Shown one piece after another: positions 3,648 to 20,640 of a stretch of DNA of 64,000 bases. Origin of the DNA: Balneola sp. (GTDB taxonomy: Bacteria > Bacteroidota > Rhodothermia > Balneolales > Balneolaceae); the NCBI GenBank assembly GCA_002720745.1, contig PBJO01000018.1:62001-126000 (forward strand), read 5' to 3'. Made by a program: the position numbers and the translations under genes. Positions within the stretch are counted from its first letter, which is position 1; each line of letters opens with the position of its first letter. The notes beneath the pieces were generated by a model. That model saw nothing but the letters and a program-made list of their open reading frames with translations. It had not been told where the DNA came from and made no database searches.

Positions 3648-5897
3648 CTAGGACATTACTTTTGGAATCGCACTTTCATAAATGCTATGAAGATGATCAA
3701 GACTCACCGAGCCAACTCCTTCAAACAACAATGCATCCCCTTGAACGGTCCCAATTTGTACGACTTCTACCCCACCTTGAAGTAAGTGCTTCATCAAGGT
3801 CTCTTTTTGATCGGGTTGGCAAGTTAGAACTATACCTGATTGTGCCTCACTGAACCAGATTTCATGAATAGAACCTGAGAGAACACTCAAGTCGATTTGG
3901 GCTCCTAATGAGCTGAAAATACCCATTTCTGCAATACTAACAGCTAAGCCACCGTCTGAAACATCATGTGCAGCGGTGACTAAACCAGAGGTGATTGCTT
4001 TTAATACAACTTGCTGAACCTTGAGCTCTACATCCAAATCAAGTATAGGAGCATCGCCTGTAGTCAATTTATGTATTACCTTCAGATACTCCGTTCCACC
4101 TAAACCGATTCTCGAAGAACCAACATATAGTATTATATCGCCCTCATTTTTGAATGATGGAGACATTTTATGCTTTTCAACGTCCTCGATCACACCGAGC
4201 ATACCAATAATGGGAGTAGGAAATATGGCACTTTCCGGATTTTCATTATAAAAACTTACATTTCCACCTGTTACAGGAGTGTTTAACTTCCTACATGCAT
4301 CACCCATCCCCGCAAGTGATTCCTTAAATGTCCAATACACTTCTGGTTTGTATGGATTACCATAGTTAAGGCAATTGGTAATAGCCATTGGTTTGGCTCC
4401 TGAGCAAACTACATTACGGGCCGATTCGGCCACCGCAATCTGACCACCTCTACGAGGATTCAGATAAACATATCGCCCGTTACAATCTGTTTTTGCTACT
4501 AAGCCTTTTTTACTGCCTTTAAGCCTAATAACACCCGCATCAGTAGCCCCTGGACCTTGAACCGTATTGGTTCGTACCATCGTATCGTATTGTTCATGAA
4601 CCCATCTTTTGGAAGCTATGTTTGGGCTATGTAATAAGGCTTCCAAACTTTCTATTAGGTTTTCAGGATGGGTTAACCCAGATAGGTCAGCGCTTTGCGT
4701 TTCTTGTAGATAGGCCGGCTTTTTCATTTCTCGTACATATTGAGGAGCACCGCCACCCAAAACCAGATGTTCGGCTGGAATTTGGGCTTTTACCTCACCA
4801 TCCTTCCAGTAAGTCACATGATCACCTTCCACCACTTCACCGATCACAACGGCATGCAAATCCCATTTCTCATAGACATCTATGATGGCTTGTTCTTGCC
4901 CTTTATGAGCCACAATAAGCATGCGTTCCTGACTTTCAGAAAGAAGCATTTCGTAGGCGGTCATTCCCGGCTCACGCGCAGGTACTAAATCCAAATTTAT
5001 GCGCATCCCTTGGCCACCTTTTGCGGTCATTTCACTGGAAGAACAGGCAATTCCAGCCGCTCCCATATCCTGCATTCCAACGACTGCACCTGTTTGAAGT
5101 GCTTCGAGACTGGCTTCAAGTAATAATTTTTCAGTAAATGGATCTCCAACTTGTACGCTTGGCCGTTTAGCTTCACTTTCTTCGGAGATTTCCTCGGAAG
5201 CAAAAGTTGCCCCATGTATCCCATCTCTACCTGTACTTGCGCCAACAATTAGCACCGGATTTCCAATTCCCTTTGCAATGGCAGAAGCTGTTTCTCCAGC
5301 TTTAACGATCCCAATACTCATTGCGTTGACTAGTGGATTACCTTCATAACTTTCATCAAAATAAACTTCACCTGCAATTACTGGTACACCAAAAGAATTT
5401 CCATAATCTCCGATACCACGTACCACACCATCCAAAAGATACCTAACTCTAGGGGTATTTAAAGAACCAAAACGCAGTGAATTCAAGGCAGCAATAGGAC
5501 GGGCACCCATCGTAAAAATATCCCGATGAATTCCTCCAACTCCAGTTGCAGCTCCTTGATATGGTTCCACAGCAGAAGGATGATTATGACTTTCAATTTT
5601 AAACGCACAACACAAACCATCGCCAATATCAACCAACCCGGCATTCTCTTCACCGGCTTCGACCAGTAGATGCTCGCCTTCACGGGGAAGTTTTTTTAGC
5701 TCAATAATGGAATTTTTATACGAACAATGTTCACTCCACATCACCGAATAAACGCCTAATTCCGTAAAACTAGGAGTCCTTCCTAAACAGTCGATAATCA
5801 TTTCATATTCTTCATGAGTTAGACCATGATCTAGGGCTAATTCAAGATTTACGGTAGGTTCCTTTGGTGTAAGTTCAGACATAAATGATGCGTTCAT
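3648..5897 (-). CDS. purL: Phosphoribosylformylglycinamidine synthase subunit PurL
   Basis: PurL uses ATP and glutamine-derived ammonia to convert FGAR to FGAM in purine synthesis. At 749 residues it is the small, Bacillus-type PurL that needs separate PurQ and PurS; neither gene is in the window. Motifs seen include [11 protein letters not shown] near 55, the ATP/metal loop [21 protein letters not shown] near 100-120, [10 protein letters not shown] and, in the second half, [19 protein letters not shown]. An alternative start five codons downstream (MSELTPKEP) is possible. It is preceded by a HAD nucleotidase 41 bases upstream on the same strand, so the two may be cotranscribed. Confidence 0.97.
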
Positions 5898-9961: not shown

Positions 9962-10426
9962 TTAACTGGTTGGTATGTATCCACCTTCTTTAATTGCTCG
10001 TAACACCATAGTGGTCTCAAGGCGTTGCACATCGGGTAAGGTGGTTAGTTCATCCCGTAACAAGCGTTCATAATCGGCTATATCTGTAGCCACTACATGC
10101 AATAAGAAATCAGACTGTCCTGTAGTATGGTAACAGGACAAAATCTCTGGTATACCTCGTACCGCTTCGATAAAATCGTCCAGCAGACTCATTTGGTGAA
10201 CACTTAGGGTAACCTTGACAAAAACAGTCATACCCTTACCCACTTTTTCTTTTTCAAGTACCGCTGTGTAGCCTTTTATAACGCCCTCTCGCTCTAAGCG
10301 CTTTACTCTCTCTACAGTAGGTGTGGCCGTTAATCCTATCCTTTTTGCAATTTCTCTATTGCTAATTCGAGCGTTTTCTTGCAGATGTGCAATAATCTGT
10401 TTGTCAATACCGTCTAGTTCTATCAT
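9962..10426 (-). CDS. Lrp/AsnC family transcription regulator
   Basis: A 154-residue Lrp-type protein. The N-terminal helix-turn-helix is clear (IDKQIIAHLQENARISNREI and RIGLTATPTVERVKRLEREG), followed by the linker GVIKGYTAVLEKEKVG and a RAM/AsnC ligand-binding domain that includes GQSDFLLHVVATDIADYERL. It lies directly upstream of, and is probably cotranscribed with, the methionine gamma-lyase-like gene. This arrangement recalls the mdeR-mdeA pair of Pseudomonas putida, in which an Lrp-like activator controls methionine gamma-lyase. Regulation by an amino acid, perhaps methionine, is inference. Confidence 0.95.
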   Translation of the reverse strand: MIELDGIDKQIIAHLQENARISNREIAKRIGLTATPTVERVKRLEREGVIKGYTAVLEKEKVGKGMTVFVKVTLSVHQMSLLDDFIEAVRGIPEILSCYHTTGQSDFLLHVVATDIADYERLLRDELTTLPDVQRLETTMVLRAIKEGGYIPTS

Positions 10427-10546
10427 TTGGTAGTGTTTAATGCTTCTATATTACACATTAACCCTACATTTAACAAGTAAAATATCTATATAATAGTCTT
10501 TATAACTAAATTAATTTGATTAGGTATTATTGTTAGTTAAGCTAAT

Positions 10547-11194
10547 TTATAGGTATCGAATGGTTCTTCCTTTCTTGACATGTAATCCTTCGTAATAGGT
10601 ATGTATATCTACCAATTCTTCAGGCGCTGAGGGATCCGCATATACGTTGTCTATTTGCCTGAGTATTGTCAAATTGTACAATTCAATTTGCTCAAGTGTA
10701 AATTTAAATAATTCGGAACTATCGGTTTTGAGATGAATGGTGCCATCTGGTATTAGTAACTTTTTATACAGCTTTGAAAAACGGGTCGATGTTAACTTTT
10801 TTCTGTCTTTCTTTAGTTGTGGATCGGGAAAAATAATCCATATCTCCTCCAGACAATGCTCAGGGATATAATGTTCTAAATGTCCTATATTATATGCTCG
10901 CAAAAAAGCGGTGTTTTGCATCTGATGTGTTAAAGAGTAATTAGCCCCAACCCACATTCTATTACCTTTAATATCGACCCCGATAAAATTTCTGTCTGGA
11001 TATCGTAAAGCCAGACCAACGGTATATTCTGCCTTTCCACAGGCCAGTTCTAAGGTAATCCTATCTAAGCCTGAAAAAAACTTTTCAAACCATACTGTCT
11101 TATTAAATCCATACCCATGTTGGTGGTCGGACTACTCAATAACATGGTCAAATTGAGCGATCTCTTTAAATCGTTTGTGCTTGATCTTCGGCAT
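10547..11194 (-). pseudogene. trmB: tRNA (guanine-N7)-methyltransferase interrupted by an in-frame TAG
   Basis: Reading from the ATG at 11194 gives MPKIKHKRFKEIAQFDHVIE, then a TAG at 11134-11132, then, in the same frame, a continuous TrmB sequence: GYGFNKTVWFEKFFSGLDR, LELACGKAEYTVGLALRYP, FIGVDIKGNRMWVGAN, IWIIFPDPQLKKDR and the C-terminal LVDIHTYYEGLHVKKGRTI. TrmB makes m7G46 in tRNA. The only downstream ATG (10957, MWVGAN) lies after the SAM-binding motif and would give an inactive 136-residue protein. Motif I normally reads ELGCGKGE; here both of those glycines are alanine, which hints at relaxed selection. It follows pdxH by 14 bases. Recent nonsense mutation, stop-codon readthrough or a sequencing error are the three explanations. 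Confidence 0.88.
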
Positions 11195-11208: not shown

Positions 11209-11847
11209 TTATGGAGCTAATCGCTGCTTCTGCCACCGATGGTCTATTTGCACATAACTTATTCTATCATGAAGTCTACTTGGGCGACCCTGCCAGAATT
11301 CAATTCTTATGGGGCGTAATTCAAAGCCTCCCCAATGAGTGGGATAAGGCACACCGGTGTCTTCTGGATATCGTTGAATCAACTCTTCTAGTCGCTTCTC
11401 TAATACCGATCTATCTTTAATCACCTGACTTTGATTAGAAACCCACGCTCCTAATTGACTCATATAAGGTCGGGATAAAAAATAGGCCTTTGAGTCTTCT
11501 TCACTTATTTTACTCACCTGCCCCTCAATGCGAACCTGGCGTTCCAATTCTTTCCAAAAAAAAGTCATAGCTACCCATGAATTTTGCTCTATTTCACTCG
11601 CTTTATCTGAATTATAATTAGTAAAAAATTGAAATCCATTCCCAGAGATGCCTTTTAGGAGGACGATACGGTTATGAGGCTTACCTAGTGCATCTACCGT
11701 TGCAAGAGCGCAAGCATTGGCTTCAAGTACTTCGGCCTTTAAAGCCTCTTCAAACCAGCTACTGAATTGCGAGATAGGATCTCGTAATAATGCCGTTTCG
11801 TCTAGTTCTTGCTGTGTATAGTCTTTACGTATGTTTTGTATTTTCAT
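11209..11847 (-). CDS. pdxH: Pyridoxamine/pyridoxine 5'-phosphate oxidase
   Basis: PdxH is an FMN enzyme that oxidises PNP or PMP to pyridoxal 5'-phosphate. The 212 residues match the family length, with the N-terminal IRKDYTQQELDE, the FMN-binding RIVLLKGISGNGFQFFTNYN, the conserved RPYMSQLGAWVSNQS near 150 and the C-terminal substrate motif RIEFWQGRPSRLHDR. It lies between a peroxiredoxin-like gene (3 bases upstream) and trmB (14 bases downstream), all on the minus strand, so the three are likely one operon. PLP supply links it to several PLP enzymes of the window. Confidence 0.97.
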   Translation of the reverse strand: MKIQNIRKDYTQQELDETALLRDPISQFSSWFEEALKAEVLEANACALATVDALGKPHNRIVLLKGISGNGFQFFTNYNSDKASEIEQNSWVAMTFFWKELERQVRIEGQVSKISEEDSKAYFLSRPYMSQLGAWVSNQSQVIKDRSVLEKRLEELIQRYPEDTGVPYPTHWGGFELRPIRIEFWQGRPSRLHDRISYVQIDHRWQKQRLAP

Positions 11848-18213: not shown

Positions 18214-18963
18214 ATGGAAAAATCAGGAAAAAAAAATCTACTAATATTTGGCAAGCACATCATTCGCGAGACTCTAACTCGTGAAACCGGTGAAATATCG
18301 AAAGTATTTGTGCTTAACAGTCTAGCTCCCATTAAATATGAAGATTTAAAAAAAGAATGTGAAGCTCAAAATATCCCTATTAGTTCGGTACCTATTCAAA
18401 AATTGAATCGGCTTAGTAATCAAGGGAATCATCAAGGGTTCATAGCTGAAATTAGTCCAATAGACTACACTAATTTTTTTGATTGGGTTGAACAAACTAT
18501 GGTGAGTCCAACAACAGCGGTTCTACTATTGGATAGTATCGGAGATCCTCACAATTTAGGGGCTATTATTCGTTCAGCTACTGCGGCTGGAATATCGGCC
18601 ATTATCATACCCACACAACAGCAGGTTCCTGTCAATGCTACAGTTTTCAAAGTTTCGGCAGGTACAGCTGGCATTATTCCCGTTATACGAGTGCACAATA
18701 CTGAGCAAGGTCTAAAGAATTTAAAGCTAGCGGGCTTTACACTAATTGGGCTTGATGGCAACGCATCCAATTCACTTTGGACAGCTGAATGGACAGGACC
18801 GTTAGCTTTTGTAGTGGGTAGTGAGGGTGGTGGTATAAGTAAGAAAATAGCCAAACTCTTAGATAGTTGTGTCTCCATTCCAATGGAGCACGCAGTTGAA
18901 TCACTCAATGCCTCCGTTAGTGCTGCACTAATTAGTTATGAGTGGAAAAGACGACAGGCTTAA
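18214..18963 (+). CDS. rlmB: 23S rRNA 2'-O-methyltransferase RlmB (SpoU/TrmH family)
   Basis: The 249-residue protein has the SpoU layout: an N-terminal substrate-binding domain (IFGKHIIRETLTRE; NQGNHQGFIAEI) and the knotted SAM domain with motif 1 LLLDSIGDPHNLGAIIRSA near 110-128, motif 2 FVVGSEGGGISKKI near 198-211 and motif 3 SIPMEHAVESLNASVSAALI near 218-238. It fits RlmB, which methylates G2251 of 23S rRNA; the TrmH/RlmB split is not fully certain by eye. Its stop overlaps by four bases the stop of the convergent DUF1343 gene. Confidence 0.92.
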   Translation: MEKSGKKNLLIFGKHIIRETLTRETGEISKVFVLNSLAPIKYEDLKKECEAQNIPISSVPIQKLNRLSNQGNHQGFIAEISPIDYTNFFDWVEQTMVSPTTAVLLLDSIGDPHNLGAIIRSATAAGISAIIIPTQQQVPVNATVFKVSAGTAGIIPVIRVHNTEQGLKNLKLAGFTLIGLDGNASNSLWTAEWTGPLAFVVGSEGGGISKKIAKLLDSCVSIPMEHAVESLNASVSAALISYEWKRRQA

Positions 18964-20201
18964 TATAATAAGTAGTTACTGCGTTTTTCTTTAAACGACT
19001 CAAGGTTACTGCCCCAGTCAATATCTAGAGAATCAGATTCCAGGTTGATGCGATTGCGGATCAATTCGTCAATTTTATTAGTACCAGCCAACAAGTATAG
19101 ATAGTCTTTATACTCCGCCTCTGGTGAGTGTTCCATAAGCCACTGCATCATGCGTAAACCAATGGTCAATGGATCTGCGTGCTCCAAGGCATTTTCCCAT
19201 AGAATCCCATTTAGCAGTAGCCCTTCTCCTTTTGGGCGTAAGGCTTTTCCGGGTATTGAAACAGGGGTAAATTGAGTAGCTTGCAGGCGCACCCCGTGGT
19301 TATTCCACAGCGAAATATCATCATTTATCTTACTACTCTCTCCCCCCATCATTAAAAATGGATATTCAGTGCCCCTGCCTTCTGATAGAGTTGTACCCTC
19401 AAATAAACAGGTTCCTATGTAAGCATAGGCATGTTCAAAGGTGGGCAAATTAGGCGACGGTGGCACCCATTTTAGTTGAGTATCATTCCACTTCATATTT
19501 CGCTGCCAACCACTCATCGGTATGACTCGCAGATTAACCTTAGCATCGGTATTATACCAATCCTCACCTAATGCCATTTGAGCTAATTCACCCAAGGTTA
19601 ATCCATGAGCTATAGGTATAGGATAGGTCCCCACAAAAGAATTGTGTTCGGGTTCTAAAACCCATCCAGCAATGTAATCTCCACCCAAAGGATTTGGGCG
19701 ATCTAAAACCCAAACCTCAATCCCTTGCTCTGCTGCGGCCTCAATTACGTACTTCATGGTCGAATTATAGGTATAAAACCTTGCCCCAATATCTTGCATA
19801 TCAAACAGTAAAACATCAATTTCATCCAGCATTTGTGCGTTAGGCTTTTTAGTTGGCCCATAAAGGGAAAATACAGGAAGTCCAGTTGCTTCGTCTAGCC
19901 CATCTTGTATAATTTCCCCTGCACCCTGAGTGCCGCGGAATCCATGTTCTGCCGCAAAGAGCGCTTTGACAGGTATCCCCAAAGCCATTAGAGTATCCAG
20001 CAAATGTACGCCATCTACCCGAGCAGTAGGATTCATAACTAGACCTATATTTCGTCTATCTATTTCGTCCAAATGCTCCTGAAGCAACACCTTTGCTCCT
20101 ACTTTAATATCTACCTTCACTCTCTCAGATTGGCAGCTCATAAAAAATAATGCCCCTAAAAAAAGCAGAATTAGAAAAGATATCCTGGTAAGATGAGACA
20201 T
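18960..20201 (-). CDS. namZ: DUF1343 exo-beta-N-acetylmuramidase NamZ-like lipoprotein
   Basis: A 413-residue DUF1343 protein. The signal peptide ends with a lipobox (LFFMSCQS, Cys 23). Family marks are GLVMNPTARVDG, LFAAEHGFRGTQGAGE near 84-99, LFDMQDIGARFYTYNSTM near 130-148, WVLDRPNPLGGDYIAG, WVPPSPNLPTFEHAYAYIGT and EGTTLSEGRGTEYPF. Members such as NamZ remove non-reducing terminal MurNAc from peptidoglycan fragments, so a role in cell-wall recycling is likely. It starts 4 bases after the ndk stop and is probably cotranscribed with it; its 3' end overlaps the convergent rlmB by four bases. Confidence 0.92.
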   Translation of the reverse strand: MSHLTRISFLILLFLGALFFMSCQSERVKVDIKVGAKVLLQEHLDEIDRRNIGLVMNPTARVDGVHLLDTLMALGIPVKALFAAEHGFRGTQGAGEIIQDGLDEATGLPVFSLYGPTKKPNAQMLDEIDVLLFDMQDIGARFYTYNSTMKYVIEAAAEQGIEVWVLDRPNPLGGDYIAGWVLEPEHNSFVGTYPIPIAHGLTLGELAQMALGEDWYNTDAKVNLRVIPMSGWQRNMKWNDTQLKWVPPSPNLPTFEHAYAYIGTCLFEGTTLSEGRGTEYPFLMMGGESSKINDDISLWNNHGVRLQATQFTPVSIPGKALRPKGEGLLLNGILWENALEHADPLTIGLRMMQWLMEHSPEAEYKDYLYLLAGTNKIDELIRNRINLESDSLDIDWGSNLESFKEKRSNYLLY

Positions 20202-20205
20202 TTTT

Positions 20206-20640
20206 TTATGCGCCCTGTACAGCTACTATGTCTGACTCAGCAAAAAAGTAATTGGATTCTAATTGCCCATTTATTAATGAATCCGAGCCATGTATTATGT
20301 TCTCTCTTACACTGTCAGCAAAGTCGGCTCGAATGGTGCCTGATTCGGCTTCGACTGGGTTGGTTGCGCCAATAAAAGCTCTAAAATCGGATACTGCATT
20401 TTCTTTCTCAAGTACCATGGGCACACAAGGGCCACTACTCATGAAATCACATAACTCCCCATAAAATGGTCGTTCTTTATGCACTGCGTAAAACCCACCT
20501 GCGGTAGTTAGGGTTAGGTGTATCATTTTCATAGCAACAATGCGGAAACCAGCTTCTTGAATTCGCTTAGTAACCTCACCAACAAGTCCTTTTTTAACGC
20601 AATCGGGTTTTAAAATGGTAAGTGTTCTTTCAACAGACAT
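20206..20640 (-). CDS. ndk: Nucleoside diphosphate kinase
   Basis: The 144-residue protein is a standard NDK, transferring phosphate from ATP to other NDPs. It starts [19 protein letters not shown] and has the phospho-histidine motif [16 protein letters not shown] near residues 113-128, the nucleotide-binding [19 protein letters not shown] and [17 protein letters not shown]. Length and motifs are all as expected. It heads a two-gene unit with the DUF1343 gene. NDK acts in the cytoplasm and supplies CTP/UTP and dNTPs, linking to pyrG and pyrD in the same window. Confidence 0.98.

Follow-up and report, generated by a model that had tools for sequence, protein, structure and literature searches.

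Probable recent loss of the tRNA methyltransferase gene trmB in a marine Balneolaceae lineage

The trmB gene of a marine Balneolaceae genome is very probably a recent unitary pseudogene. The genome is a draft assembly of 2.17 Mb (25 contigs, 98.6% complete, 0.44% contaminated), and the locus lies in the window, i.e., the whole 64,000-nucleotide stretch of contig PBJO01000018.1 that was analyzed. A TGG-to-TAG change would end translation of TrmB, the tRNA (guanosine(46)-N7)-methyltransferase, at codon 21, ahead of the SAM-binding motif, and a CAA-to-TAA change would take off the C-terminal end of the protein. These changes, one inserted codon, and a near-neutral share of nonsynonymous changes on the lineage suggest that the cell makes no active TrmB, in which case its tRNAs would be predicted to lack m7G46.

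The gene was compared with trmB in six same-genus genomes that carry an intact copy (G006, G008, G003, G005, G004, and G001). The closest named relatives were UBA2956 (G006/L033), with 95% DNA identity across the 2-kb locus, and AG-896-M03 (taken as G008/L034), with 93% identity. The 2-kb segment containing trmB and its two neighbors was alignable at 80 to 95% in all six genomes, indicating that the neighborhood was conserved. G002 and G007 had no match to the entire 2-kb locus; both were incomplete assemblies, so the absence of trmB there was uninformative. The features of the locus were as follows.

10520 to 11194, minus strand: probable trmB pseudogene, whole ancestral extent, from the ATG at 11194 to 11192 to the ancestral stop at 10522 to 10520, based on alignment to the six relatives
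11132 to 11134, minus strand (CTA on the plus strand): nonsense mutation 1, TAG at codon 21; Trp in 6/6 same-genus homologues
11024 to 11050, minus strand: motif I, ELACGKAEY (SAM binding), 3' of the TAG; same as in intact relatives
10889 to 10891, minus strand: in-frame one-codon insertion, AAT at codon 102; no residue at this place in 66 aligned homologues
10775 to 10777, minus strand: Leu-to-Ser change at codon 140; the 66 homologues have L, I, M, or V here
10547 to 10957, minus strand: longest leftover ORF that has a start (ATG; 136 aa), lacking the N terminus and motif I
10547 to 10549, minus strand: nonsense mutation 2, TAA at codon 216; Gln in 6/6 same-genus homologues
11209 to 11847, minus strand: upstream neighbor, which we take to be pdxH-like; intact, with no interior stop; 6 nonsynonymous and 9 synonymous changes
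9962 to 10426, minus strand: downstream neighbor, presumably Lrp/AsnC-like; intact

The minus-strand frame from 11194 to 10547 was translated as MPKIKHKRFKEIAQFDHVIE, a stop, SDHQ...RTIRYL, and a second stop. The first-pass annotation had described one continuous TrmB frame on both sides of an in-frame TAG at 11132 to 11134, and this description held: the frame contained a single TAG and no frameshift, and the part after the TAG scored 180 bits against NF001080, the equivalog model for TrmB (overall range, 180 to 193 bits; cut-off, 132), and also matched Pfam PF02390. The NF001080 match spanned one TAG and one TAA. The same annotation had placed the end of the gene at the TAA at 10549 to 10547, and this placement was not supported, as the stop was premature relative to the Gln codon of every same-genus homologue. 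Codon 216 was CAA in G006 and G008, the TrmB proteins of the relatives had 7 to 9 residues from this position on, and the window frame was still open past the TAA until the stop at 10522 to 10520. At codon 21, the sister genomes had TGG (Trp). The uninterrupted frame of a functional TrmB was thus broken twice, by the TAG at codon 21 and the TAA at codon 216. A downstream restart that would rescue TrmB was rejected because no ATG, GTG, or TTG was found between the TAG and motif I, and the first start codon, at 10957, falls beyond the motif.

Judging from the sequence, the frame is a TrmB orthologue by descent, since its score exceeded the model cut-off and its neighborhood was conserved. It showed full-length homology to intact Balneolaceae TrmB, retained motif I and the FPDPQLKKDR stretch, and was 93% identical to TrmB of UBA2956 over the post-TAG part. 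It differed from intact TrmB in its two premature stops, its one extra codon, and its raised nonsynonymous share. A check for a second trmB, which had been proposed in the first-pass annotation, found none in the assembly (of which approximately 1.4% may be missing), as the NF001080 search returned a single match. The sole other PF02390 match in the genome scored 23.8 bits and was partial, covering model positions 3-53. It was not reported with NF001080, and we rejected it as a second copy.

To infer selection on the lineage, we counted changes at sites where G006 and G008 agreed and the window differed; the gene-by-gene comparison covered one 140-kb contig versus these two sisters. The trmB gene had 14 nonsynonymous and 7 synonymous changes, compared with 980 nonsynonymous and 1858 synonymous changes along this lineage in the 70 other contig genes (p = 0.004, Fisher test), an excess that rests on 21 substitutions and therefore on small counts. 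When the nonsense changes were left out, the ratio for trmB was 12:7 (p = 0.014). On the sister branches of trmB, 12 nonsynonymous and 25 synonymous changes were found (p = 0.015). The neutral expectation for trmB was 71 to 79% nonsynonymous, and the 14 of 21 changes observed were compatible with it (binomial p = 0.31 against 76%). Of the genes with 12 or more changes (n = 65), one reached the top nonsynonymous share of 0.667, and trmB equaled it. The 70 other contig genes contained no interior stops in 26,474 codons. The pattern of changes in trmB appears as relaxed selection would make it, as after loss of the gene.

The first-pass annotation had also taken the alanines of motif I (ELACGKAEY) as a sign of relaxed selection. 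This argument did not survive comparison with relatives: the intact same-genus homologues had ELACGKAEY or ELACGRAEY, other Balneolaceae had ELACGKGEY, and Ala residues in motif I are, by this alignment, normal for the genus. The proposed loss of TrmB was instead strengthened by the two nonsense mutations, the codon insertion, and the nonsynonymous excess. The window trmB kept all 32 of the positions at which at least 97% of homologues agree, and the decay of the gene would therefore be young.

All 67 of the other genomes of the order that were at least 95% complete had a trmB match above the cut-off, so loss of the gene is unusual for the order. Interior trmB stops flagged in six of these genomes, G089, G029, G075, G077, G078, and G079 were rejected because all of them were the natural terminal stop. 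Four fragmented genomes that were 88 to 92% complete (G009, G022, G041, and G044) had no full-length PF02390 match, probably due to assembly gaps.

Several other loci were noticed. A seeming second pseudogene (contig C18:14596-16145) was judged to be a spurious ORF, as it had stops in all three forward frames and adjoined a tRNA cluster. Ahead of the window on contig C18, at about 11.2 to 9.6 kb from its first base, an ORF of this genome showed single-base gaps in alignment with G008 and, at 19:12, a high share of nonsynonymous changes; a frameshift or a misplaced start is possible. At 18960-20252 of the window, the orthologue of a 430-residue G008 protein is interrupted by an in-frame gap of 51 bases when aligned with the G008 gene. 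For the 744-residue gene at 3648-5882 of the window, the G006 copy had 268 nonsynonymous and 65 synonymous lineage-specific changes, and few were found in G000 and G008; the excess in G006 may reflect misalignment or an unusual G006 allele.

It is very unlikely that the stops arose by assembly or sequencing error and are absent from the organism. The assembly is a draft in 25 contigs, which leaves room for such an error, but a single 224-codon gene contained an in-frame codon insertion as well as two separate stops of the substitution type, and the 26,474 codons of the other genes on the same contig had no interior stop. In addition, the nonsynonymous excess was gene wide, which is not expected from errors at the stops alone, and the completeness and low contamination of the genome (98.6% and 0.44%) also argued against error. 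Random assembly error would not be expected to combine two stops and an inserted codon with a surplus of amino acid changes.

It is very unlikely that leaky readthrough of the TAG by a near-cognate tRNA supplies a little TrmB without its C-terminal end, which the TAA would remove. The open frame from codon 22 to codon 215 and the retention of 32 of 32 strongly conserved positions speak for such readthrough, but the signal of relaxed selection, the second stop, the presence of RF1, and the failure to find a suppressor tRNA among 31 tRNAs all point the other way. The corresponding phenotype, in which amber readthrough at codon 21 would give low-level TrmB and leaky termination would set m7G46 at a reduced level, is likewise very unlikely.

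Recoding of TAG as an amino acid, which had been put forward together with readthrough as the alternative to loss, is almost certainly wrong: the only in-frame TAG in its favor was that of trmB itself, whereas RF1 was present in the genome (517.6 bits; cut-off, 423), none of the 31 tRNAs found had a CUA anticodon, TAG served as the terminator of 17 of 63 orthologues, at the place where the sister gene stops, and of 72 of 301 long ORFs (420 kb examined), no in-frame TAG was found in the 70 other contig genes, and recoding of TAG would leave the second lesion, the TAA at codon 216, unexplained. The other in-frame TAGs and the amber suppressor tRNA that the first-pass annotation had suggested looking for were thus not found in these genes and tRNAs.

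The reading of trmB as a recent unitary pseudogene was supported by the lack of an intact second copy in the assembly and by relaxed selection (14:7 versus 980:1858, small counts). A G46 in a five-base variable loop is the usual target of TrmB, and at least 18 of the 31 tRNAs had a variable loop of five bases whose third base was G. The retained G46 substrates are as expected for a recent, tolerated loss. General decay of tRNA modification was rejected, as truB and trmD had open frames in this genome. Disruption of trmB in E. coli caused no phenotypic defect (PMC6320965), so loss of trmB would be tolerable in principle and, apart from its rarity in the order, unsurprising.

Unitary pseudogenes of dispensable tRNA modification genes, in which a single-copy gene is disabled by point mutations while its neighbors and gene order stay intact, are a close known parallel. 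The trmB case does not differ from them in kind, and the lineage alone is new; a literature search turned up no description of a Balneolaceae trmB pseudogene. The loss is a modest, ordinary finding, and it leaves the picture of the genetic code unchanged. It would be an example from nature of how a marine lineage recently lost a tRNA modification that is widespread yet dispensable. The sister genomes serve as controls, and tolerance of m7G46 loss is thereby open to testing outside the laboratory.
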